NCBI GenBank assembly: GCA_024637045.1 | Contig: JAGXFX010000009.1 | Coordinates: 62,001 to 126,000 of the forward strand | Length of the DNA stretch: 64,000 bases | Source: Soehngenia sp. | GTDB lineage: Bacteria; Bacillota; Clostridia; Tissierellales; Tissierellaceae | Direction of reading: 5' to 3' | Shown here: positions 22,805-35,492 of the stretch, one piece after another | How positions within the stretch are numbered: position 1 is the first letter of the stretch | Layout: every line of letters starts with the position of its first letter | Translations under genes and position numbers: made by a program | The notes under the pieces: generated by a model | What the model was told of the DNA's origin: nothing | Databases searched by the model: none | What the model saw: the letters and a program-made list of their open reading frames with translations, nothing else

Positions 22805-22920
22805 AATAGCTTGAAATTATTCAAAGGGGGAATGCAGGTCATAGGAAAACGATTTTGTATATAATGCAAATGTGATTCTTGGGAGAAAATATTAAAACTA
22901 AAATGTTTGGAGGAGAACTA

Positions 22921-24000
22921 ATGAATAAAAAAATTATATTAGGTTTAATCGTAAGCGTATTATTAATAGGACTACTAACAGGTTGTGGTGGACAAACTCC
23001 GGAGGTTCCTGAAGAAGGTAACGGCGGAGAAAGTGATAAATTGAAGTTCGCAGCTATCCTAGGCGTAGGTGGACTTGGAGACAACGGATTTAATGACGAG
23101 GTATTCTACGGAGTTGAGACTGCAGCTGAAAAATATGACGCTGAGTTTGATTACGCTGAACCAAAAGATATATCAGAGTTTGAAACACAACTTAGAATGT
23201 TTGCAGATTCAGGAGAATATGCAACTATCATAGCGGTAAGTACGGAGCAGGTTGAAGCTTTGAAAATGGTTGCAGAAGATTATCCTGAGCAAAGATTTAC
23301 AATGCTTGACCAAAAGATTGAAGGATATGACAATATCCACAGTATAGCATCATCAAATCCAGGTCAGCATTTCCTTTCAGGAGTACTTGCAGGAATTGCA
23401 ACACAGGATGAAAGATTCCCACTTAGCAACCCAGAAAATGTATTAGGATTTACAATAGCAATGGACACTCCAGTGTCAAGAGCGCAGGCAACAGGATTTA
23501 TTGCAGGAGCAAAATATATCAACCCAGAAGTTGAAATGCTTACAAACTTTATCGGTGGATACAATGACCCGGTAACTGCTAAGGAATTGGCATTGGTTAT
23601 GTATGAGAGAGGCGCAGACATAGTAAGTGCCAACGCAGGAAGCTCATCACAAGGAGTATTCGCAGCAGCTAAAGAAAAGAACAGATACGTAATTGGTACT
23701 TCTCTTGCAATGGTTGACCCTGAGGTAAGCTTAAGTACCTCCGTCAAAAAGGTTTGGGTATTTGTAGACCAGGAAATAAAATCCCTTAGCGAAGGAACCT
23801 GGGAGCCAGGATTCTCAGAACTAAGCATGGCTGAAGGTGTTGTTGACTACAATGTAGAGGGATTGGATGTTGAAATCCCAGAGGATGTAACTGCAACAAT
23901 CGAAGACATAAGACAACAGATTATAGATGGAGAGATTGTACTTCCAACTGATCTTGACCAATTGGATGATTGGACTGCAAACAACAGATACGAAGATTAA
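22921..24000 (+). CDS. BMP-family nucleoside-binding lipoprotein of an ABC importer
   Basis: 359-aa surface lipoprotein: short basic N-terminus, hydrophobic signal and lipobox LLTGC with the acylated Cys near residue 22, then a PEVPEEGNGGE linker. The mature part starts AAILGVGGLGDNGFND, the usual opening of BMP/PnrA/TmpC purine-nucleoside receptors, and contains ADIVSANAGSSSQGVFAAAKE. It should deliver nucleosides to the two permeases encoded downstream. I start at ATG 22921, preceded by GGAGGAGAACTA; an upstream ATG at 22879 would bury the signal peptide. Confidence 0.92.
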   Translation: MNKKIILGLIVSVLLIGLLTGCGGQTPEVPEEGNGGESDKLKFAAILGVGGLGDNGFNDEVFYGVETAAEKYDAEFDYAEPKDISEFETQLRMFADSGEYATIIAVSTEQVEALKMVAEDYPEQRFTMLDQKIEGYDNIHSIASSNPGQHFLSGVLAGIATQDERFPLSNPENVLGFTIAMDTPVSRAQATGFIAGAKYINPEVEMLTNFIGGYNDPVTAKELALVMYERGADIVSANAGSSSQGVFAAAKEKNRYVIGTSLAMVDPEVSLSTSVKKVWVFVDQEIKSLSEGTWEPGFSELSMAEGVVDYNVEGLDVEIPEDVTATIEDIRQQIIDGEIVLPTDLDQLDDWTANNRYED

Positions 24001-24037
24001 TTATATGTGTTTAAGATAAAGCTCGGAGGTGAATTTA

Positions 24038-25561
24038 GTGGAAATAGTGAGAATGGAAAAAATCACTAAGGTCTATCCCGGAACAGTTGCTCTGAAAAAT
24101 GTAAATTTCACACTTAATGAGGGAGAGATACTTTCTCTTCTTGGAGAAAACGGTGCTGGAAAATCTACATTGATGAAAATTTTATACGGTATGACTGAAC
24201 CCACCTCTGGAGATGTTTACTATCGTGGCGAGCCAATTGATTTCAGACGTCCGGTAGATGCAATTGAAAAGGGAATCTGTATGGTGCACCAGCATTTTAT
24301 GCTGGTGCCTGCATTTACTGTTACGGAAAATATTATTGCTGGTAGCGAACCCGGGAAAAATGGCTTTGTCGATATGAAAGAAGCCAGAAAGGTAGTTAAG
24401 GATCTTATTTCACAGTTCAAGTTCAATATTGATCCTGACACCAAGGTTGAAAACCTTTCTGTTGGAGAGCAGCAAAGAGTTGAGATTCTTAAGGTTCTAT
24501 ACAGAAAAGCTGATATAATTATACTTGACGAACCAACAGCTGTTTTAACACCCCAGGAGGTAGACGACCTGTTTATTATATTGAGGAGACTAAGGGCTGA
24601 AGGAAAGAGTATAATCATCATCACCCATAAGTTAAAGGAAACAATAGCTTTGGCTGACAGGGTAATGATTCTTAGAGATGGTGAGCTAATCAGAGACGAT
24701 GTTGATCCGTCAGAGGTATCGACAAATGAATTATCAGAAATGATGGTAGGCCGAGAGGTTGACCTTCAGGAGAGACACCCTGCAAAGAATATCGGAGAGG
24801 TTGCTCTTCGCGTTTCAGGACTGACAGTTGAGGAAGACGGAAAGAAAAAAGTAAACAATGTATCGTTTGAGGTAAAAGCTGGTGAGATTCTCGGAATAGC
24901 TGGAGTTGAAGGCAACGGACAGACTCAGTTGATTGAAGCTTTGACAGGGCTTAGAAGAGTGAATTCCATGGAGCTGTTGCTAAATGGAGAAAAAATCTCG
25001 GGAACAAGTAATAAATTTCTCAGAGCAGGAATTGCACACGTTCCTGAAGACAGGACATCAATGGGATTGGTAAAGGAAATGTCAATCAAGTACAATTTGA
25101 TACTTGGATATCACAGAGAAGATGATTGTTGTGACAGCAGGGGAATCCTTAAGAGAAAAGACATCGAGGAGAAGGGAAACAGGTTAAAGACCCAATTTCT
25201 TATAAAGGCACCAAGTGTTGATGCAAAAATAGAAGAATTGTCAGGTGGAAACCAGCAAAAGGTTGTAATAGCAAGAGCTTTCAGCCATGACCCAAAGGCA
25301 ATCATAATCGCACATCCCACAAGAGGTGTAGATGTAGGTGCAATGGAGTATATTCACCAACAGATGATTGAACTTAGGGACAAGGGAGCTGCAATTCTGT
25401 TGATTTCTGCAGATCTTGATGAAGTCAAGACACTTAGTGATAGACTTTTGGTAATGTTTGAAGGTGAAATTGTATCTGAAACAATGCCAGGTAAACTCAG
25501 CGATATAGAAATGGGATTATTGATGACTGGCGGCAGATCAATGATTGAGGGGGAATTATAA
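24038..25561 (+). CDS. Nucleoside ABC importer ATPase (double ABC domain)
   Basis: 507-aa protein with two fused ATP-binding domains, as in sugar/nucleoside CUT2-type importers. Domain 1: Walker A GENGAGKS near residue 37, signature LSVGEQQ, Walker B IIILDEPTA. Domain 2: GVEGNGQT (degenerate Walker A), LSGGNQQK, and AHPTRGVD in place of the usual catalytic DEPTRGVD, a typical feature of the second half. GTG at 24038 is seven bases after GGAGGT. It overlaps the next gene by one base (TAATG). Confidence 0.94.
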   Translation: MEIVRMEKITKVYPGTVALKNVNFTLNEGEILSLLGENGAGKSTLMKILYGMTEPTSGDVYYRGEPIDFRRPVDAIEKGICMVHQHFMLVPAFTVTENIIAGSEPGKNGFVDMKEARKVVKDLISQFKFNIDPDTKVENLSVGEQQRVEILKVLYRKADIIILDEPTAVLTPQEVDDLFIILRRLRAEGKSIIIITHKLKETIALADRVMILRDGELIRDDVDPSEVSTNELSEMMVGREVDLQERHPAKNIGEVALRVSGLTVEEDGKKKVNNVSFEVKAGEILGIAGVEGNGQTQLIEALTGLRRVNSMELLLNGEKISGTSNKFLRAGIAHVPEDRTSMGLVKEMSIKYNLILGYHREDDCCDSRGILKRKDIEEKGNRLKTQFLIKAPSVDAKIEELSGGNQQKVVIARAFSHDPKAIIIAHPTRGVDVGAMEYIHQQMIELRDKGAAILLISADLDEVKTLSDRLLVMFEGEIVSETMPGKLSDIEMGLLMTGGRSMIEGEL

Positions 25562-26667
25562 TGAGATTGGATAATTTGAAGAGTAGTAAGTATTCAAATC
25601 TAAGAACCTCAGTCGTAAATTCCTTTTTTGCATTGGTTTTTTCATTGGTTCTGGGAGCAATATTTATTTCAATAACAGGGTATTCACCTTTTGAAACCTA
25701 CAAGGCAATTTTTTGGTTGTCATTCAGTACAATAAAGGGATTTGCCCTGACATTAAGTCAGGCTACACCCCTTATGTTTACAGGAATATCTTTTGCAATT
25801 GCATATAAGGTCAAAATGATCAATACTGGAGCAGAGGGACAACTTTATGCAGGTGCAATGGCAGCGGCCTTGGTAGGAGCATATGTAACGAATATACCAG
25901 GAATTGTTCATATTCCACTTGCGATGTTTGTGGCATTTATTGCAGGAGGAATTATCGCAGGGCTTGTAGCGATAGCCAAGATATATACTGGAGCCAGTGA
26001 AATAATTCTGACTCTAATGCTTAACAATGTCATAATCCTTTTTACTAGCTTTTTGGCAAACGGACCACTAAAGCCTGAAGGAAGCGGTATTGGACAGACT
26101 GAAAGAATTGCCGAGAGCGCAGAGTTGATGAGACTGGTACCCCAGACTCAGCTGACCATAGCACTTTTAATTGTTATTGCACTGGCAATAATAATTCAGT
26201 ATATGTTGGACAGAACAGTTTTCGGTTATGAAATCAAGGTAACTGGTAACAACAGAAAAGCTGCTGAAGTAGCAGGTATAAATGTATCAAAGATTTCAAT
26301 ACTTACATTTGCACTAAGTGGTGCAGTGGCAGGTATGGGTGGAGCGGCAATGGTTCTTGGTGTAAACTATAGATTTATTGAAGGCTTTTCATCTGGATAT
26401 GGATTTGCAGGAATATCAATAGCAGCTCTGGCAGCGTATAGTCCCTTCGGTGTTATACCAGCTGCATTTATGATAGGTATCCTGAGAGCGGGAACCATAA
26501 CTCTAAGTAGAACAACTTCAATACCAATCGAGTTTGTTGATGTTATTCAGGTATTGGTAATAATTTTTGTTGCTGCACCTGCAATGATCAGACAGATACT
26601 GAACTTATTCAAAAAAATTACCGGTAAGAACAAGAAAAAAGAGATAGCCGGAGGTGAGGTGCAATGA
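25561..26667 (+). CDS. Nucleoside ABC importer permease 1
   Basis: 368-aa membrane protein of the BPD_transp_2 (CUT2-like) family with about ten helices. Contains NTGAEGQLYAGAM and TGNNRKAAEVAGINVSK, the cytoplasmic loop that meets the ATPase, followed by FALSGAVAGMGGA. Equivalent to NupB/YufP-type subunits. Overlaps both neighbours (1 base and 4 bases), so the operon is tightly coupled. Confidence 0.93.
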   Translation: MRLDNLKSSKYSNLRTSVVNSFFALVFSLVLGAIFISITGYSPFETYKAIFWLSFSTIKGFALTLSQATPLMFTGISFAIAYKVKMINTGAEGQLYAGAMAAALVGAYVTNIPGIVHIPLAMFVAFIAGGIIAGLVAIAKIYTGASEIILTLMLNNVIILFTSFLANGPLKPEGSGIGQTERIAESAELMRLVPQTQLTIALLIVIALAIIIQYMLDRTVFGYEIKVTGNNRKAAEVAGINVSKISILTFALSGAVAGMGGAAMVLGVNYRFIEGFSSGYGFAGISIAALAAYSPFGVIPAAFMIGILRAGTITLSRTTSIPIEFVDVIQVLVIIFVAAPAMIRQILNLFKKITGKNKKKEIAGGEVQ

Positions 26668-27587
26668 TGATAGATGTGGATATGGCTTTAATTATTTCCA
26701 TTTTAGCATCAACATTAAGAAGAACTGTACCTTTGCTACTTGCGGCTACGGGAGGAAGCTTCTCGATGAGAGCAGGTGTAATTGATCTGGGTCTTGAAGG
26801 GATGATGCTGGCTGGTTCATTCTTTTCAATTATGGGGACATGGTTGACGGGAAGTCTCTGGATAGGCCTTCTTTTTGGTGTAGTATCCGGTGTACTTTTT
26901 TCGATGCTTCATGCTGTAATGCATATAAATTACAAAGTTAATGGATCAATCAGTGGTATGGCAGTCAATTTACTGGCAGCGGCAATGACTCCTTTGTTGT
27001 TGACAATAGTTTATGGATTGAGTGGGAAGTCGGAAATAGTTGAAAGCTTTTCAAACTTTGATCCAGATTGGCTTATGAATATACCTTTTATAGGACCTAT
27101 ACTAGCCTCACAAAATGCAATATTTTTCATTGCAATAGCACTGGTTATAATAAGTTGGATATTTATGTTCAAGACTACATTTGGTCTTAGGATGAGAATG
27201 GTTGGAGAAAACCCTCATGCTGCCAGTGCGGTTGGATTGAATGTAAAAGGATATAAATACTTTGGAGTTGCCATGAGTGGTGCTCTTGCAGGACTTGGTG
27301 GAGCGTATCTTTCATTGGGACAGATGGGAATGTTTGTCAAGGATATGACCGCTGGACGTGGATATATTGCCGTTGTAATCAACGCATTTGGAAGATACAA
27401 TCCTTTCGGTGCATTGGCCGGAAGTGCTTTCTTTGGATTCTTTGATGCGCTTCAGACAATATTCCAAAGTGTACTTCCTTCTCAGCTGGTAATGATGACC
27501 CCCTATGTAGTAACCATACTAGTAATAGTATTTGGACTTAAAGGCGGACGTGCACCGGCCGGAACTGGAAAACACGTAGAAGACTAG
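26664..27587 (+). CDS. Nucleoside ABC importer permease 2
   Basis: 307-aa partner permease. Shows MRAGVIDLGLEGMMLAGSFFS near the N-terminus, the coupling loop MVGENPHAASAVGLNVKGYKYFG and AMSGALAGLGGAYLSLGQM. It corresponds to NupC/YufQ-type subunits and would pair with permease 1 as a heterodimer. The ATG at 26664 overlaps the preceding stop; a second ATG follows one codon later. Last gene of the importer operon, followed by a strong terminator. Confidence 0.93.
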   Translation: MMIDVDMALIISILASTLRRTVPLLLAATGGSFSMRAGVIDLGLEGMMLAGSFFSIMGTWLTGSLWIGLLFGVVSGVLFSMLHAVMHINYKVNGSISGMAVNLLAAAMTPLLLTIVYGLSGKSEIVESFSNFDPDWLMNIPFIGPILASQNAIFFIAIALVIISWIFMFKTTFGLRMRMVGENPHAASAVGLNVKGYKYFGVAMSGALAGLGGAYLSLGQMGMFVKDMTAGRGYIAVVINAFGRYNPFGALAGSAFFGFFDALQTIFQSVLPSQLVMMTPYVVTILVIVFGLKGGRAPAGTGKHVED

Positions 27588-27685: not shown

Positions 27686-28561
27686 TTATTTTTCTGCTAG
27701 CATGTCTTCTTGTAGGTTTCTCTCATATGGTGAGTGAACCCATAATAGCTTAGCAGTTTTTGTACCAATATTTTTCCAACTATGTTGGGTTGAAGATTTA
27801 AAATAAATTGAGTCGCCTTCCTTTAATTTATGATTGTCTTTTTCATCCAAAGTTATCCTGATTGTACCGGACAGTACATGAATAAACTCTTCCCCATTGT
27901 GTTTATGAGTATGGCTTGATCCACAATCAGGTTCAATGTAGAACATCATTGGAAATAAAACTCTCTCCTTTTGAGCGATCAGTGATTCCATCATTACACC
28001 GGTTAAACCGGTTTGAATCTTTTCGCCTTTTCCCTTTTCAACTACTGCTTTTGCCTCTTCCTCAGGTTCGAAGAAATGCAATATACTCTTACCGTAATAA
28101 ATTGCAAGTTTTTCCAGGATTTCATAGGAAACATTTGCTTGACCATTCTCAATTTTACTTAAATAAGATACTGAAATACCAACATCGTTGGCAACCTCTT
28201 CAAGAGTTTTATTGGTTTCTACTCTGTAGTCTTTCCATTTCTTGCCAAGCAGTTTTCTGCTGGGGGCTGAGGTAGGTGCGTTATCTTCAGCATCCTGCAT
28301 GATAGGTGGTGAAGACATTCTAGGGATCATTATATCTTTTATTGCTTGTGCGTTCATCTTGTAATTCTTCGAGTAATAGTTTATTTGCTTAAGTGCCTCA
28401 ATATCTTTGAGGCTATAAATCCTATAGGAATTGCTGCTCCTTTTAGCGACAAATAATTCTTGCTTTTCCCAGTTTCTGATTGTAGCAGCTGAAACTTCCA
28501 AAACATTTGCAACTTCAGTAATGCTGAAGTATATGTCGTTGTTATCTTCTATTTGAGTCAT
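27686..28561 (-). CDS. MerR-XRE-cupin fusion regulator
   Basis: 291 aa with three parts. Residues about 10-75 are a MerR-type winged helix (FSITEVANVLEVSAATIRNWEKQEL, then YRIYSLKDIEAL). Residues about 110-165 are an XRE/HTH_3 domain (WKDYRVETNKTLEEVANDVGISVSYLSKIENGQ). Residues about 195-285 form a cupin (MMFYIEPDCGSSHTHKHNGEEFIHVLSG..KEGDSIYF..QHSWKN) with metal-type His residues. XRE-cupin regulators are common; a MerR domain in front of one is not. It diverges from the amino-acid cluster that follows and is its likely regulator. Confidence 0.85.
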   Translation of the reverse strand: MTQIEDNNDIYFSITEVANVLEVSAATIRNWEKQELFVAKRSSNSYRIYSLKDIEALKQINYYSKNYKMNAQAIKDIMIPRMSSPPIMQDAEDNAPTSAPSRKLLGKKWKDYRVETNKTLEEVANDVGISVSYLSKIENGQANVSYEILEKLAIYYGKSILHFFEPEEEAKAVVEKGKGEKIQTGLTGVMMESLIAQKERVLFPMMFYIEPDCGSSHTHKHNGEEFIHVLSGTIRITLDEKDNHKLKEGDSIYFKSSTQHSWKNIGTKTAKLLWVHSPYERNLQEDMLAEK

Positions 28562-28681
28562 AGTGTTCCTCCGATACTTATTATTATTATTACATTTTTA
28601 CCATTTTAACATACAATCAATCTCTATAACAAATAAAAAGTTTGAATTCTAAAAAATAATTATACTAACACTAAAAAACCG

Positions 28682-28711
28682 TTGACAAGGTTAGTAAAAC
28701 AATGATAATCT
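28682..28711 (+). promoter_or_regulatory. Promoter of the synthase/aminotransferase cluster
   Basis: TTGACA (28682-28687), 18-base spacer, TAATCT (28706-28711). Similar segments TTAGTAAAACAATG (28691) and TTAGTAACATTG (28716) overlap the promoter and could be regulator sites. Confidence 0.6.
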
Positions 28712-29987: not shown

Positions 29988-31142
29988 ATGGCAAACATAC
30001 AGGTTTCAAATTTATTCAAGGAGGTAAAACCTTCACCGATGCTTCAGATGTTTGAAGCAGCTTCAAAATACACCGATCTTATCAGTCTAGGCATTGGAGA
30101 GCCCGATGCAAATACACATGAATCGATAATAAAGGCAGCAGCAGATGCGGGTAAGAATGGTTTCACTCATTATCCTCCTGTCAATGGATTTTTGGACTTA
30201 AGGCAAGCGGTTTCCCAGTATTGGGAAGAGAAGTACGGATTGGAGTCAACTCCTGATAATGTTATTATCAGTGCTGGAGCAACTCAAGCAATTTACCTGG
30301 TGCTACAAGCTCTAATAAACCCAGGAGATGAAGTAATTGTTCCAGATCCATGTTTTACACCTTATATGCAGGCAATTGAGTATGTATATGGTGTACCGGT
30401 TCCAGTATCACTAAAAGAAGAAGAAGGCTTCAATATGACAGCTGAAGCTCTCGAAGCCAAGATAACTCCCAAGACAAAAATTGTTATGCTTAATTCACCT
30501 GGCAATCCAACAGGTGCAGTTATTTCAAAGGAAGAAGCTTTGAAAGTGGCAGATGTTATCAAGAAGCATGATCTTGTTCTTATGTCAGATGAAATTTACG
30601 AGGCATTTATTTTCGATGGAGAGCATGTTTGCTTTGCAACCCTCCCAGATATGAAGGAAAGAACTTTTACTATTGCAGGTTTCTCAAAGACCTACGCAAT
30701 GTGTGGTTGGAGAGTAGGATATGCGATTGGTCCAAAAAACATAATCAACATAATGAAAATAATAAACATAGGAACAACAATGAGCATGAATTCAATATCT
30801 CAAAAAGCAGCACTTTATGCTATTCAAAATTGCGAATCTGAAGTTAATGAAATGGTAGAAGATTATTCCAAGAGAGTTGAGTATGCGTATGAAAGAATCA
30901 ATAAGATCAAGGGATTATCTTGTATAAAGCCAAAAGGAGCCTTTTATATATTCGTAAATATAAAAGAAACAGGAATGAAGTCCATGGAGTTTGGAATGAA
31001 GATGCTGGAAGAGGCAAGAGTAATTACTATCCCTGGTATCTCATTTGGTCCAAATAGTGATGACTATATCAGAGTTTCATGTACCATTCCAATAGAACAA
31101 ATGGAAGAAGCCTTCAATAGGATTGAAAAAGCACTATCTTAA
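29988..31142 (+). CDS. PLP-dependent aminotransferase (class I/II fold type I)
   Basis: Moves an amino group from an amino acid to a 2-oxo acid. 384 aa, complete. LISLGIGEPD near residue 31, HYPPVNGFLDLRQAV, NSPGNPTGAV, MSDEIYEAF, and the PLP lysine in GFSKTYAMCGWRVGY, then the Arg in DYIRVSC. Aspartate-aminotransferase superfamily; the amino-acid partner is not readable. It starts 12 bases after the DRE-TIM gene with AAGGAGG, so it is in the same operon and would make the oxo acid used by that enzyme. Confidence 0.9.
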   Translation: MANIQVSNLFKEVKPSPMLQMFEAASKYTDLISLGIGEPDANTHESIIKAAADAGKNGFTHYPPVNGFLDLRQAVSQYWEEKYGLESTPDNVIISAGATQAIYLVLQALINPGDEVIVPDPCFTPYMQAIEYVYGVPVPVSLKEEEGFNMTAEALEAKITPKTKIVMLNSPGNPTGAVISKEEALKVADVIKKHDLVLMSDEIYEAFIFDGEHVCFATLPDMKERTFTIAGFSKTYAMCGWRVGYAIGPKNIINIMKIINIGTTMSMNSISQKAALYAIQNCESEVNEMVEDYSKRVEYAYERINKIKGLSCIKPKGAFYIFVNIKETGMKSMEFGMKMLEEARVITIPGISFGPNSDDYIRVSCTIPIEQMEEAFNRIEKALS

Positions 31143-31158: not shown

Positions 31159-32532
31159 ATGTCAAGAAACAAAAACGAAGTAGGAACCGAAAATACTGGT
31201 ATAGTTAGAGACAAGTTTGCATCAAGGCTGGGCTTTATATTCGCTGCTGCCGGATCTGCCATCGGTCTTGGAAATATATGGAGATTTCCATATATGACAG
31301 GAACAAACGGAGGAGGCGCTTTTGTATTCGTCTACATTGTTTGTATGATATTGGTAGGAATCAGTTTGTTGTTGGTAGAGTTTACAATAGGTAGACATGG
31401 TCAGGCTAATGCAATTGACAGTTATGCAAAAATAAGAAAAGGTGCAAAATGGATTGGTTTCCTAGGCTTCTTTTCAGCGTTTATCTTCTTGTCATACTAT
31501 TCAGTAGTAAGTGGATGGACATTATTCTATGCAATTCAATCATTCTTTGGTTTGGCGAATACTGCACCAGATCAGATGGGTGCATTCTTTGGAGCTTTTA
31601 TAGGGGATCCAGTGCAACCATTGATATACCATGCAATCTTTATGGGTCTTACGGTTTTCATAATTGCTAGAGGAGTTGCTCAAGGTATAGAAAAAGCCTC
31701 CAAGATTATGCTTCCGATGCTGTTTGTTCTGTTGATTATTCTTGTTGCGAGATCATTGACTTTACCTGGAGCAATGGAAGGCGTTAAATGGTATCTAACA
31801 CCTGATTTCTCTGTAATAACTGCAGGAGTTTGGATAGCAGCTTTGGGTCAGGTATTCTTTAGTCTAAGTGTTGGAATGTCTGGTATGGTTACATACGGAA
31901 GTTACCTTGATAAGGGAGAAAATCTTCCTAAATCATCTGGCATGATAGCAGTTATGGACCTATCAGTTGCCATTTTGGCAGGCTTGGTTATCTTCCCAGC
32001 TGTATTCTCATTTGGAATGGAACCTGGCAGTGGAGTTGGATTGGTATTTATGACTATACCTGCAGTTTTTAGTCAAATGCCATTTGGAGCATTATTTAGC
32101 TTCCTTTTCTTCTTCCTGCTCGCAATAGCAAACTTGACATCTGCCATATCAATTCTTGAAATGCCAGTTGCGTATCTTCTGGAAAAGAAAAACATGTCAA
32201 GAAAAGGCGCAGCATTATTAGTTGGAGCGATTGCTTATGTTATGGGAATAGCAGTATCCTTCAGTTTTGGTATCTGGGGAGACTTTACAATCCTTGGGAA
32301 AGGTATATTCGACTTGTTTGACTACTTCGGATCAAACATATCTCTACCACTAGGTGGGCTAGCGGCATCAATACTTGTAGGATGGTTCTGGGGAGAGAAA
32401 GCGGCGATTGGAGAAGTCAGCAATCAGGGCGAACTCAAGGGCTCAGTACTAAAAGGCTGGTTCTACATGGTTAAGTTTGTAGTTCCGGTAGTAATTATTG
32501 TAGTATTCCTCTCAAACTTAGGACTAGTATAG
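31159..32532 (+). CDS. Sodium-dependent amino-acid symporter (NSS/SNF family)
   Basis: 457-aa LeuT-fold carrier with about 12 helices. The family opening RDKFASRLGFIFAAAGSAIGLGNIWRFPY (written here in shortened form as SAIGLGNIWRFPYMTG) contains Na+ and substrate backbone contacts, followed by NGGGAFVFVY, and FFSLSVGMSGMVTYGSY in TM6-TM7. It would import a hydrophobic or aromatic amino acid with Na+. GGAGGGG precedes the ATG; the gap to the aminotransferase is 16 bases. Substrate unknown; most likely it supplies the amino acid for this operon. Confidence 0.92.
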   Translation: MSRNKNEVGTENTGIVRDKFASRLGFIFAAAGSAIGLGNIWRFPYMTGTNGGGAFVFVYIVCMILVGISLLLVEFTIGRHGQANAIDSYAKIRKGAKWIGFLGFFSAFIFLSYYSVVSGWTLFYAIQSFFGLANTAPDQMGAFFGAFIGDPVQPLIYHAIFMGLTVFIIARGVAQGIEKASKIMLPMLFVLLIILVARSLTLPGAMEGVKWYLTPDFSVITAGVWIAALGQVFFSLSVGMSGMVTYGSYLDKGENLPKSSGMIAVMDLSVAILAGLVIFPAVFSFGMEPGSGVGLVFMTIPAVFSQMPFGALFSFLFFFLLAIANLTSAISILEMPVAYLLEKKNMSRKGAALLVGAIAYVMGIAVSFSFGIWGDFTILGKGIFDLFDYFGSNISLPLGGLAASILVGWFWGEKAAIGEVSNQGELKGSVLKGWFYMVKFVVPVVIIVVFLSNLGLV

Positions 32533-32580: not shown

Positions 32581-32648
32581 ATTTATCTTAGAGGAGTAAT
32601 ATATGAGCATTATAGTTTGAGACAGAAATCAGAAAACGGAGGTAAGGC

Positions 32649-35492
32649 ATGAATTCTAAATTAGTACATGACCCTGTAAATGGTCGGTTGAGAGTAATTG
32701 GATTTGTTTCTGGAAGTGGGAATACTCTTTGGAAAGCCTTGGAACTGGAGAGAGAAATCACCGCAAACGGAGAAGAAAGTCCATTTGAAATAGTAGGAGT
32801 GTTTTCCAGCAGACCTGATGCTAAAGCTCGGAATACAGCTGAAGCTGAAGGAATACCATACGCATCTTTGGACATCAAGGAATTTCATAAGAAACATGAT
32901 GCACCAATAAGCGATATAGATGTAAGAGCACTATTTGACACAGAGGTCGCAAAGCTGATTGAGCCATTTGGAGCAGATATAATACTTTTGGCTGGCTATG
33001 TGTGGGCTACGACAGATGTAATTCTTAGTAAATACAAGGCTGTAAACGTACATCCAGCAGACTTGTCAGTAATGGAAGGGAATGAGAGGATATTTGCAGG
33101 TGCAAATGGAGTTGGCGATACTATTTCACATAAGTATACAGATATTTGTTCAAGTTCACACATTGCAACTAATGAAGTTGATGGGGGACCATTGCTTATG
33201 TTGTCTCCATCATTTGAAATTGATTATGAAATTGAAGAGGAAGATACCCTTAAAAGGACTGTACTAAAGGAAGTCAATAATCAATCAAGACATCTAGGTG
33301 CCAGAACAATATATGAGATTGCCATGGGTAATTTTAGTCTGGATGAGCAAGGGAAAGTCTATTACAAGAATAATCCTGTGCCCAGGGGAGTTAAAATAAA
33401 TTCCTGGGAAGAAAATAAACCTGTACAGTTAAGAACCTTGGGTGGCTTTCTGAAACCAAAAAGTGTGGTTGTAATAGGTGCTTCTGCAAAAGGCGGAATA
33501 GGGAATGCATTAATTAAAAACATCAATAGATTCGGGTTTAAAGGGAATGTATATGTAATCAATAGAAGTGGAGATTCAGTGGATGGAGTACCGGCGTATA
33601 CATCAGTCGAAGACCTGGAAGAGACTCCAGATTTGGCAATAATAACAACACCTTCTTCTGGAGTTGAAAGTGCAGTGGAAGAATGTGGTATGAAAGGTAC
33701 AAAGTCCATTGTCTGCATAAGTGCAGGATTTAAGGAAACAGGAGAAGAAGGAGAAAAGGCGGAACTCAGAGTAAAGGAAATCGTAGACAAGTACAATATG
33801 AGGTTATTGGGGCCAAATGGAATGGGAATTCTAAATACTGACCCAGATGTAAACTTAAATGCAACTATGTTATATCACTTGCCAAGAAAAGGAAACATTG
33901 CCCTGGTTACTCAAAGTGGAGCGATTGGAGCAGCATTACTGGATTATGCAGATGAATTCAATCTCGGATTTTCAAAAATTGCTTCCCTTGGAAATCTGAT
34001 GGACATCGATGCGTCAGATCTAATGGAAGAATTGAAAGATGATCCTCAGACAAGTGTTATCATGCTATATCTTGAAACCATACCCAATGGACGAAGATTT
34101 TTAAAAGTTCTTAAGGAAACCTGCAAGAGCAAATCAGTTGTAGTACTTAAATCAGGCATAAGTGAAGCAGGTGCATTAGCTGCAACTTCACATACAGGTA
34201 GTATAGCTGGTAGTGACAGCGCAGTTGAGGCATTGATAGAAAAGGCGGGAGCGATTAGAGTTGATTCACTTGAAATGCTCTATATGACAGCCATGGCACT
34301 TAGCAAACTAAAGAGGTTCAAAGGGAAGAGGATTGGTGTAGTTACAAATGCCGGTGGTCCCGGGATACTTATCACGGATAGACTGGCGAAAAATGGATTT
34401 GAACTGCCGGTTATGTCTGATGAGACAAGATCATTACTGGCAGAAAAGCTTTATCCCGAAGCAGCCACTGGCAATCCGATTGATGTAATAGCTGCTGGTC
34501 CACCTGAGCATTATGCATTATCATTGGACATAATGGGCAAAAGTGGACTATACGACGCACTTGCGCTGGTTTGTGTACCACCAGCAACTATTGACACCGG
34601 AGAAGTAGCAGAAGCTTGTGTACCTGTTATATCAAACCTTGAGATACCTGTGTTAAGCTGCTTTATTGGACCTAGCTTAGGAAAGCCTGCCAGAAACGTG
34701 CTAAACAAACATGATCTTCCTGTTGTAGAATATCCAGAAATGGCAGCAGATATTTTGAAGCTAGTCAATGATAAAAGGGAACAATCGTCGATGGACTTAA
34801 ATAAAAAAATTGACTACACAAGAAAATCCAAAGCAAATTTATTGTTAAATGAGAAGTATTCATCAGGATATCTAAAGACTGAAAAAGCAATGGAATTACT
34901 CGAACTCTACGAAATACCTGTTGCTAAATGGACATTTGTAAGATATGAAGAAGAGGTTGAAAATATTCAGTTGAAATTTCCAATAGTAGCAAAAGTTGAG
35001 CATGAAAAAGTTATCCATAAATCTGATGAAGGTGGTGTAATCCTCAACATCAGGGATAAGGAAGATCTAAAAAATGCCGTTAAGAGCCTTTCTGAAAAAT
35101 TTGCTGGACTAGAGGGCATTTTCCTACAGGAACAGGCAAATATCGGCATGGAAATGATTGTAGGAGCAAAGTTTGAACCTACTGTTGGTCACATATGCTT
35201 ATTGGGTGCAGGTGGAGTGGCAGTTGAATTGTATAAGGATGTATCAATGAAAATTCCACCATTGGAAGATGTGGAAGTTAAAGAAATGCTTCAAAATCTT
35301 AAGAGCTATAAATTATTCAAAGGATTTAGGGGAAGCGAAAGTTTACCAGAAGATAAATTTATTGATCTTGTAGTATGTTTCAGTGATTTAATTATGGAGA
35401 ATCCCCAAATTACAGAGATGGATATAAACCCGGTTGCATGGGATAGTAGCAAAAAGCAATTTGTAGCATTGGATTGTAGAATAAAAGCGTAA
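32649..35492 (+). CDS. Fusion of a PurN-like formyltransferase domain with an ADP-forming acyl-CoA synthetase
   Basis: 947 aa. Residues about 15-250 follow phosphoribosylglycinamide formyltransferase: VIGFVSGSGNTL, VVGVFSS-type FEIVGVFSSRPDA, DIILLAGYVWATTDVIL, NVHPADL and HIATNEVDGGPLL. The triad Asn133, His135 and Asp178 is present. Residues about 263-740 form the CoA-binding and ligase domains (SVVVIGASAKGGIGN, LVTQSGAIGAALLDYA, and ATSHTGS with the phospho-His candidate His515). Residues about 740-947 form an ATP-grasp part (VIHKSDEGGV). The enzyme half makes ATP from acyl-CoA; the formyl half is unexplained. GGAGG before the ATG. Confidence 0.85.
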   Translation: MNSKLVHDPVNGRLRVIGFVSGSGNTLWKALELEREITANGEESPFEIVGVFSSRPDAKARNTAEAEGIPYASLDIKEFHKKHDAPISDIDVRALFDTEVAKLIEPFGADIILLAGYVWATTDVILSKYKAVNVHPADLSVMEGNERIFAGANGVGDTISHKYTDICSSSHIATNEVDGGPLLMLSPSFEIDYEIEEEDTLKRTVLKEVNNQSRHLGARTIYEIAMGNFSLDEQGKVYYKNNPVPRGVKINSWEENKPVQLRTLGGFLKPKSVVVIGASAKGGIGNALIKNINRFGFKGNVYVINRSGDSVDGVPAYTSVEDLEETPDLAIITTPSSGVESAVEECGMKGTKSIVCISAGFKETGEEGEKAELRVKEIVDKYNMRLLGPNGMGILNTDPDVNLNATMLYHLPRKGNIALVTQSGAIGAALLDYADEFNLGFSKIASLGNLMDIDASDLMEELKDDPQTSVIMLYLETIPNGRRFLKVLKETCKSKSVVVLKSGISEAGALAATSHTGSIAGSDSAVEALIEKAGAIRVDSLEMLYMTAMALSKLKRFKGKRIGVVTNAGGPGILITDRLAKNGFELPVMSDETRSLLAEKLYPEAATGNPIDVIAAGPPEHYALSLDIMGKSGLYDALALVCVPPATIDTGEVAEACVPVISNLEIPVLSCFIGPSLGKPARNVLNKHDLPVVEYPEMAADILKLVNDKREQSSMDLNKKIDYTRKSKANLLLNEKYSSGYLKTEKAMELLELYEIPVAKWTFVRYEEEVENIQLKFPIVAKVEHEKVIHKSDEGGVILNIRDKEDLKNAVKSLSEKFAGLEGIFLQEQANIGMEMIVGAKFEPTVGHICLLGAGGVAVELYKDVSMKIPPLEDVEVKEMLQNLKSYKLFKGFRGSESLPEDKFIDLVVCFSDLIMENPQITEMDINPVAWDSSKKQFVALDCRIKA

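Follow-up and report, generated by a model that had tools for sequence, protein, structure and literature searches.

Within the window analysed here, a 64,000-nucleotide stretch of a Soehngenia sp. contig, a single open reading frame (ORF) with an ATG start, shortly preceded by the Shine-Dalgarno-like sequence ggagg, encodes a formyltransferase (FT) domain fused to an ADP-forming acyl-CoA synthetase (ACD). The fusion gene is the last of four on the forward strand, behind those for a DRE-TIM metallolyase, an aminotransferase and an SNF-family transporter, with intergenic gaps of 12, 16 and 116 bp, and a regulator gene lies divergently upstream of them (Table 1).

Domain architecture of the fusion

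That a formyltransferase and an ADP-forming ligase share one ORF had been proposed from the DNA letters alone (the sequence-only reading), and Pfam domains, AlphaFold2 models and an alignment of 26 such fusions bear this out. The Pfam scan detected Formyl_trans_N at residues 15–204 (E 2.5e-11), as the proposed formyltransferase-like N-terminal part demanded, then CoA_binding_2 (271–396), Succ_CoA_lig (414–551), a partial Ligase_CoA_2 (564–627) and ATP-grasp_5 (739–946, E 2e-53). The CoA-binding, Succ_CoA_lig, Ligase_CoA and ATP-grasp_5 domains all exceed the Pfam cut-offs. The AlphaFold2 model of the full-length fusion has a pLDDT of 87.9 and a pTM of 0.83, while that of the FT domain alone reaches 95.3 and 0.92. 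The folds nearest to the FT model in Foldseek are those of PurN, with a VIA Z of up to 25.9 (3tqr, root-mean-square deviation 2.1, 24% identity), in agreement with the sequence profile. On the NCBIfam model for PurN (TIGR00639) the fusion scores 58 bits, missing the cut-off of 150.1, and the FT domains of the whole family scored 45–82 bits on the PurN model in the genome search. Its score of 456 bits on TIGR02717 (acetate--CoA ligase (ADP-forming), alpha subunit) falls below the equivalog cut-off of 567.15, and it reaches 479.6 bits against a cut-off of 1300 for 4-hydroxybutyrate-CoA ligase. Among solved structures, the ligase part is related to 4-hydroxybutyrate-CoA ligase 8wzu (Foldseek E 1.4e-55, 32% identity), PatZ, DddX and Korarchaeum ACD1. 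Judged by these features, the fusion is a CoA ligase of the energy-conserving type, predicted to form ATP, that carries a genuine FT domain.

The ACD relatives (8wzu, Korarchaeum ACD1, PatZ and DddX) have the ligase domains and the phospho-His in common with the window protein, which adds the N-terminal FT domain. PatZ carries a GNAT domain; the window protein has FT, and no GNAT domain was found in it (Pfam, E 0.001). The hydrolase domain of 10-formyl-tetrahydrofolate (10-formyl-THF) dehydrogenase shares the FT fold (4qpd, Z 19.7), but its fusion partners are a carrier domain and a dehydrogenase domain, not a ligase. That hydrolase domain hands its formyl group to a phosphopantetheine thiol, and HypX, of hydrogenase CO biosynthesis, likewise couples an FT domain to a CoA domain, with formyl-CoA proposed (PMC6802093). 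However, the C-terminal half of HypX is enoyl-CoA-hydratase-like, whereas that of the window protein is an ACD with no such Pfam match, and the catalytic triad given for HypX (His74, Asp80, Asp109) differs from that of the window FT. HypX was not among the best 50 structure matches of the FT model, and a HypX-like FT is still conceivable. We class the fusion as an ACD variant and not as a PurN or a HypX, because for each of the latter two a defining feature was looked for and found lacking. No account of an FT-ACD fusion was found among the titles and abstract openings listed from the open-access literature, and the sequence-only reading knew of none either; it is a new architecture built from known folds.

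Table 1. Positions of the fusion gene and its neighbouring features in the window
Feature	Position	Strand	Remarks
Divergent regulator, MerR-type + XRE-type helix-turn-helix + cupin	27686..28561	-	homologue in 17/32 loci
Overlapping divergent promoter-like sites, 11 of 12 each	28659..28709	.	between regulator and DRE-TIM gene
DRE-TIM metallolyase, HMGL-like, 402 aa	28767..29975	+	close partner of FT
Pyridoxal phosphate aminotransferase	29988..31142	+	nearest solved 1gd9/1gde 299 bits, 1dju 298 bits
Na+-dependent transporter, SNF/NSS family	31159..32532	+	nearest solved 4us3, 385 bits
13-pair stem-loop	32548..32580	+	between transporter and fusion gene
FT-ACD fusion	32649..35492	+	947 aa; FT domain residues 1-~250, ACD ~262-946, phospho-His515

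Conservation of the FT domain and its DRE-TIM partner

Two peptides were used to seed a scan of 84,980 species genomes, which returned 31 loci. L037 lies on the same contig as L034 by sequence identity, and with the window the set comes to 32 distinct loci, a lower bound on family size since only two peptides seeded the scan. They comprise 26 full-length fusions, four fusions cut by contig ends (L057, L061–L063) and two stand-alone FT domains (L060, L065). The full-length fusions, the window's included, align end to end and are 43–58% identical to that of the window.

All residues singled out by the sequence-only reading (N133, H135, D178-G179-G180-P181 and H515) are where it had placed them in the window protein. 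The triad it called intact is complete there but not throughout the family: position 133 is Asn in 20/26 fusions and Gly in the other six, and those same six have Tyr in place of His at position 171. Counting the two stand-alone FT domains, Asn133 is present in 21/28 and replaced by Gly in 7/28, all from Synergistaceae, while His135, Asp178 and Gly180-Pro181 are kept in 28/28. By comparison, the Asn of the triad is present in all 15 PurN-clade rows, which were chosen from the tree described below. A second difference from PurN lies in the phosphate loop, where those 15 rows have an Asn, presumably equivalent to the phosphate-binding Asn13 of E. coli PurN, and all 28 FT domains have Thr or Ser. 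W119, D138, R147 and N210 are invariant in the FT domains, with other or mixed residues in the PurN-clade rows. W28 is also invariant and K29 nearly so, in a segment not compared with PurN because PurN is gapped there in the alignment. On the ligase side, H515, within an SHTG motif and presumably the phosphorylated histidine, is present in 26/26 fusions together with H790, K791, D793, E860 and D864, which we take to be ATP-grasp residues. In a tree of 55 rows, a branch with 93/91 support sets the 28 FT domains apart from the other rows, albeit with long-branch warnings and several poor comparison rows, taken by pattern or short match. After removal of six poor rows (49 rows), support rose to 100/99, with the bootstrap unsettled and long branches still flagged. 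Sequence and tree thus point to FT as a clade of PurN fold apart from PurN.

Carriers of the family are mostly Bacillota and Synergistota and include the named strain Lactonifactor longoviformis DSM 17459; several carrier record titles mention goat gut, sheep rumen or sediment. In the window's taxonomic family, 27 further genomes (three from the same genus) gave no match to the FT query at E 1e-12, and among 391 genomes of its class the only family-level match was in the window's own genome. Another 54 class genomes match FT at E <= 1e-5, with 35 bits at most; two of the frames matched are 520 and 656 aa long (G245, G365). In 398 genomes of the phylum the fusion occurs in two, the window's own included, and a third match (G796) is weak and PurN-like (45.5 bits, 211-aa frame). 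In Synergistota, FT occurs in 15/185 genomes, and this search turned up five more carriers (G865, G915, G918, G976, G997). A plasmid search was also tried, and the best 10 of its 18 records are 22–31% identical and PurN-like. This patchy distribution suggests horizontal transfer of the fusion. The L034/L037 contig, SLNR01000005.1, is titled Candidatus Sumerlaeota yet present in G437, which is placed in the window's phylum, so it is probably mislabelled or part of a mixed metagenome-assembled genome (MAG); its fusion adjoins hydantoinase-like genes, judged by eye, and a cysteine-dioxygenase-like gene.

Is the FT domain simply the purine enzyme of its host? For most carriers this can be rejected, since a separate PurN above the model cut-off occurs elsewhere in 27/32 carrier genomes, the window's own among them (204.6 bits). 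Three of the other five have a stand-alone PurN-model frame at 100–146 bits, and G806 (L044) and G808 (L046) have, besides the fusion, only one 62–70-bit match in a longer frame, perhaps Fmt. Replacement of a missing formate-THF ligase (fhs) is likewise rejected as a general rule: fhs is present in 27/32 carrier genomes and 138/148 class genomes, and is thus neither absent nor enriched. It lies within four of the loci (L039, L040, L041, L045), and for three of these (L039, L040, L045) the cluster copy is the sole fhs match of the genome. In G803, G809, G812, G818 and G826 the fhs matches are split across several contig ends, as if repeated copies had broken the assemblies.

The closest partner of FT is the DRE-TIM gene, which is present in 29/32 loci. 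It is missing from L034, L046 and L057; the first two genomes carry it elsewhere (66% and 61%), and the L057 genome gave no match at E 1e-40. Using two joined DRE-TIM sequences as the query, we found FT and DRE-TIM together in 14 of the 185 Synergistota genomes, FT only in one, DRE-TIM only in one and neither in 169 (Fisher p 6e-19, treating genomes as independent, which they are not). The DRE-TIM protein has an HMGL-like domain and resembles isopropylmalate and homocitrate synthases, its best NCBIfam model matches; it shares with these and with methylthioalkylmalate synthase (MAMS) the RDGEQ, HxH and GER residues. In MAMS, according to one study, His388 is the likeliest general base and Glu227 supports it (PMC11532901). 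Both are missing from the partner enzyme: in the alignment to 6e1j the window protein has Pro315 at the His388 position and Ala162 at that of Glu227, and across 30/30 DRE-TIM copies these positions hold Pro and Ala/Ser, respectively. With neither residue present, condensation of acetyl-CoA by the known mechanism appears unlikely. F98, F160, W310 and W319 are invariant in all 30 copies.

DRE-TIM paralogues, of which 8/8 aligned lack both the Claisen His and the Glu, sit in genomes where FT was not found, the window's own excepted. Their surroundings differ (10 neighbours scanned with models, others judged by eye): some have TAXI/TRAP-type transporters, others aldehyde-ferredoxin-oxidoreductase-like proteins or a formate-dehydrogenase-like molybdoenzyme, and others again a LarA-type racemase with a hydroxyacid dehydrogenase and an acetate/propionate kinase. 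In settings of these kinds 2-oxo acids could be supplied. In the window's genome, a second paralogue (45%; G000:C25:86633-87805, L076:8625-9836, - strand) lies beside what by eye appear to be a TAXI-type TRAP transporter and an aminotransferase. A few genes downstream is an apparent electron-bifurcating formate dehydrogenase, also by eye, whose large subunit is in two frames, perhaps split by a selenocysteine codon. In L077, L078 and L079 the paralogue accompanies a LarA-type racemase, a D-2-hydroxyacid dehydrogenase, a galactarate-dehydratase-like protein and an acetate/propionate kinase (by models in L078, by eye in L077 and L079), a further hydroxyacid cluster with no assigned function, and in L080 and L083 it adjoins an aldehyde-ferredoxin-oxidoreductase-like protein (by eye in L080; by a model in L083, below cut-off).

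Gene neighbourhoods and substrate hints

The remaining neighbours vary more. Mapping 19 queries on the 32 loci gave counts that are lower bounds, because several loci end at contig ends. Co-occurrence with all three genes upstream of the fusion had been put forward for a survey, and it is close only for DRE-TIM: an aminotransferase of either of two families occurs in 17/32 loci (the window's family in six, at least 47% identical; a second family in 11, at least 51%) and the SNF transporter in 12/32. A homologue of the regulator is found in 17 loci, TRAP parts in 14 (L047 with the large permease only), a D-2-hydroxyacid dehydrogenase in seven (two only 29–31% identical to the query) and an alpha/beta hydrolase in four. 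A second, plain ACD, divergent from the aminotransferase-fusion pair, is present in five (L039, L040, L044, L045, L047). With a transporter plus an aminotransferase or hydroxyacid dehydrogenase, and fhs in four loci, the clusters are catabolic-looking in gene content.

The two loci with FT alone bear on the sequence-only suggestion that one polypeptide handles both the formyl unit and the acyl-CoA; a need for both activities in one chain is not supported. In L060 a plain ACD lies elsewhere in the genome. In L065 a CaiB-type (class III) CoA-transferase gene is nearby, beyond the regulator, and no ACD match was found anywhere in the genome, a MAG whose completeness limits this result. Since FT stands by itself in both, the ligase is replaceable, and FT and DRE-TIM form the core. 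What stands of the sequence-only reading, then, is an FT domain on a ligase of the energy-conserving type, conserved with upstream genes; a triad intact throughout the family and the need for one polypeptide are not supported.

Within the window, neither the promoter-like nor the terminator-like sites are enriched over the region (24 found vs. 23.5 expected, and 5 vs. 4.6). The stem-loop before the fusion gene is possibly an attenuator or a partial terminator. Between it and the fusion, a five-codon ORF with a Shine-Dalgarno-like sequence was noticed by eye (32602-32619), a possible leader peptide. Directly upstream of the regulator are a BMP-type lipoprotein and an ABC transporter (22879-27587), and a similar set is near the fusion in L036.

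As for the substrate, the window transporter scores 385 bits against 4us3, which we take to be the hydrophobic amino acid transporter MhsT, well ahead of LeuT, the group that follows at 203. The window aminotransferase comes closest, among solved structures, to chains titled aspartate aminotransferase (1gd9/1gde) and aromatic aminotransferase (1dju). For the second family the nearest are 1x0m, PH0207 and a multiple-substrate aminotransferase, with 2-aminoadipate and kynurenine enzymes lower. These relatives suggest a hydrophobic or aromatic amino acid. Kynurenine-formamidase neighbours were considered as well, for the N-formylkynurenine version given below, and offer it weak support: the L049 alpha/beta hydrolase is nearest to esterases, and a cyclase beside the paralogous DRE-TIM in L080 has isatin hydrolase as its best relative and kynurenine formamidase lower in the ranking.

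A possible catabolic route and its alternatives

Starting from the observed domain identities, their conservation and the FT/DRE-TIM pairing, we propose tentatively, at a probability of roughly 40%, that the fusion acts at the end of a catabolic module without prior description, as its energy-conserving enzyme. By homology, an amino acid would be imported and transaminated to a 2-oxo acid in the window; at other loci an acid would enter via TRAP, and a 2-hydroxy acid would be oxidised to the 2-oxo acid where the dehydrogenase is present. The DRE-TIM metal would then hold the 2-oxo acid, and the enzyme would cleave it to an acyl-CoA, most likely with CoA as the nucleophile, given that its metal and Arg residues are retained and that the base for deprotonating acetyl-CoA is absent. 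The FT domain may pass a formyl unit of the substrate to THF, and formate-THF ligase could recover formate and ATP from the formyl-THF. Since FT goes with DRE-TIM and the ligase is detachable (L060, L065), FT would act on the product or substrate of DRE-TIM. Finally, the ACD domain is expected to convert the acyl-CoA to the free acid and ATP via phospho-His515. Schemes built on hydroxypyruvate, homoserine/formaldehyde, malate-type chemistry or alpha-oxidation were set aside, as none covers both FT and the uptake genes.

Several points weigh against this proposal. Gly133 and Tyr171, found in six fusions and the stand-alone FT of L060, sit badly with ordinary PurN-type chemistry in those FT domains. 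The FT/DRE-TIM pairing is imperfect: among the Synergistota, G819 has FT without DRE-TIM and G986 the reverse. A retro-Claisen role for the DRE-TIM enzyme is guessed from the residues that it lacks, and we infer the module's substrate as well as the direction and order of its steps. The window's aminotransferase has as its closest solved relative a chain titled aspartate aminotransferase, which makes an aromatic substrate less likely. The presence of fhs in a genome is uninformative, and the four loci that contain it stem from few lineages. The stem-loop between transporter and fusion could uncouple their expression, and the absence of ACD in L065 rests on a MAG.

A more specific version is speculative and quite unlikely, namely that the module is a new anaerobic route for fermenting aromatic 4-oxo amino acids that carry an N-formyl group, N-formylkynurenine for example. 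Transamination would give a 2,4-dioxo acid that its formylated aryl amine keeps from cyclising. Cleavage of this acid with CoA by the non-Claisen DRE-TIM enzyme would yield pyruvate and N-formylanthraniloyl-CoA, FT would shift the aryl-N-formyl group to THF, whose N10 is also an aryl amine, and ATP would come from anthraniloyl-CoA through ACD, with more from formyl-THF through Fhs. This would fit the multiple-substrate/kynurenine-type aminotransferase relatives, the MhsT-like transporter and the invariant aromatic residues F98, F160, W310 and W319 of DRE-TIM, and would account for FT and ACD in one chain. The TRAP/hydroxyacid loci, in which Asn133 is sometimes absent, are left unaccounted for by this version. 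Among the open-access matches listed, none dealt with the fermentation of N-formylkynurenine by anaerobes.

The main rival to the catabolic module, though unlikely, is that FT moves a formyl group between 10-formyl-THF and CoA, with ACD interconverting formyl-CoA + ADP + Pi and formate + CoA + ATP, a CoA-dependent counterpart of formate-THF ligase. This is the simplest account of the fusion itself, and the second, plain ACD present in five loci looks as though two acyl-CoAs were handled. A precedent is the N-terminal domain of HypX, for which formation of formyl-CoA from 10-formyl-THF and CoA has been proposed, although that too is a proposal (PMC6802093). Yet FT is tied more tightly to DRE-TIM than to ACD, and the simplest form of the idea is disfavoured because it would need FT and ACD to be inseparable, while the ligase can be detached. 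FT is also closer to PurN, which has an amine acceptor and whose Asn is kept in 21/28 FT domains, than to hydrolase or thiol types; Fhs already exists in 27/32 carrier genomes; and the transporter, aminotransferase and DRE-TIM genes would be left unexplained.

It is rather doubtful that the FT domain transfers no formyl group at all and serves as a scaffold, as a ligand sensor for the ligase or in some other acquired reaction. The loss of Asn133 in 7/28 domains, the Thr/Ser in the phosphate loop of all 28 and the FT-only invariants W119, D138, R147 and N210 speak for such a role, but His135, Asp178 and Gly180-Pro181 never vary, and FT is kept alone in L060 and L065 beside the same partner genes. 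An anabolic direction, with ACD spending ATP to activate an acid and FT then formylating an amine of the resulting CoA ester, is very improbable. PurN-type formyltransferases do formylate amines and ACD reactions are reversible; however, the loci combine uptake systems and a regulator with an aminotransferase or 2-hydroxyacid dehydrogenase, as catabolic clusters usually do, and no biosynthetic core enzyme is prominent among the examined neighbours, many of them viewed as ORFs only. A chance fusion or an artefact of assembly or ORF calling can be dismissed, given 26 aligned full-length copies across different genomes and one confident continuous model.

Whatever its substrate, the fusion locus exposes a DRE-TIM subfamily without the residues for the reaction of its best-matching models, and the FT/DRE-TIM pairing makes the route testable with two purified proteins. 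If the proposal is true, anaerobes would have a direct link between folate one-carbon chemistry and the substrate-level phosphorylation carried out by a CoA ligase.

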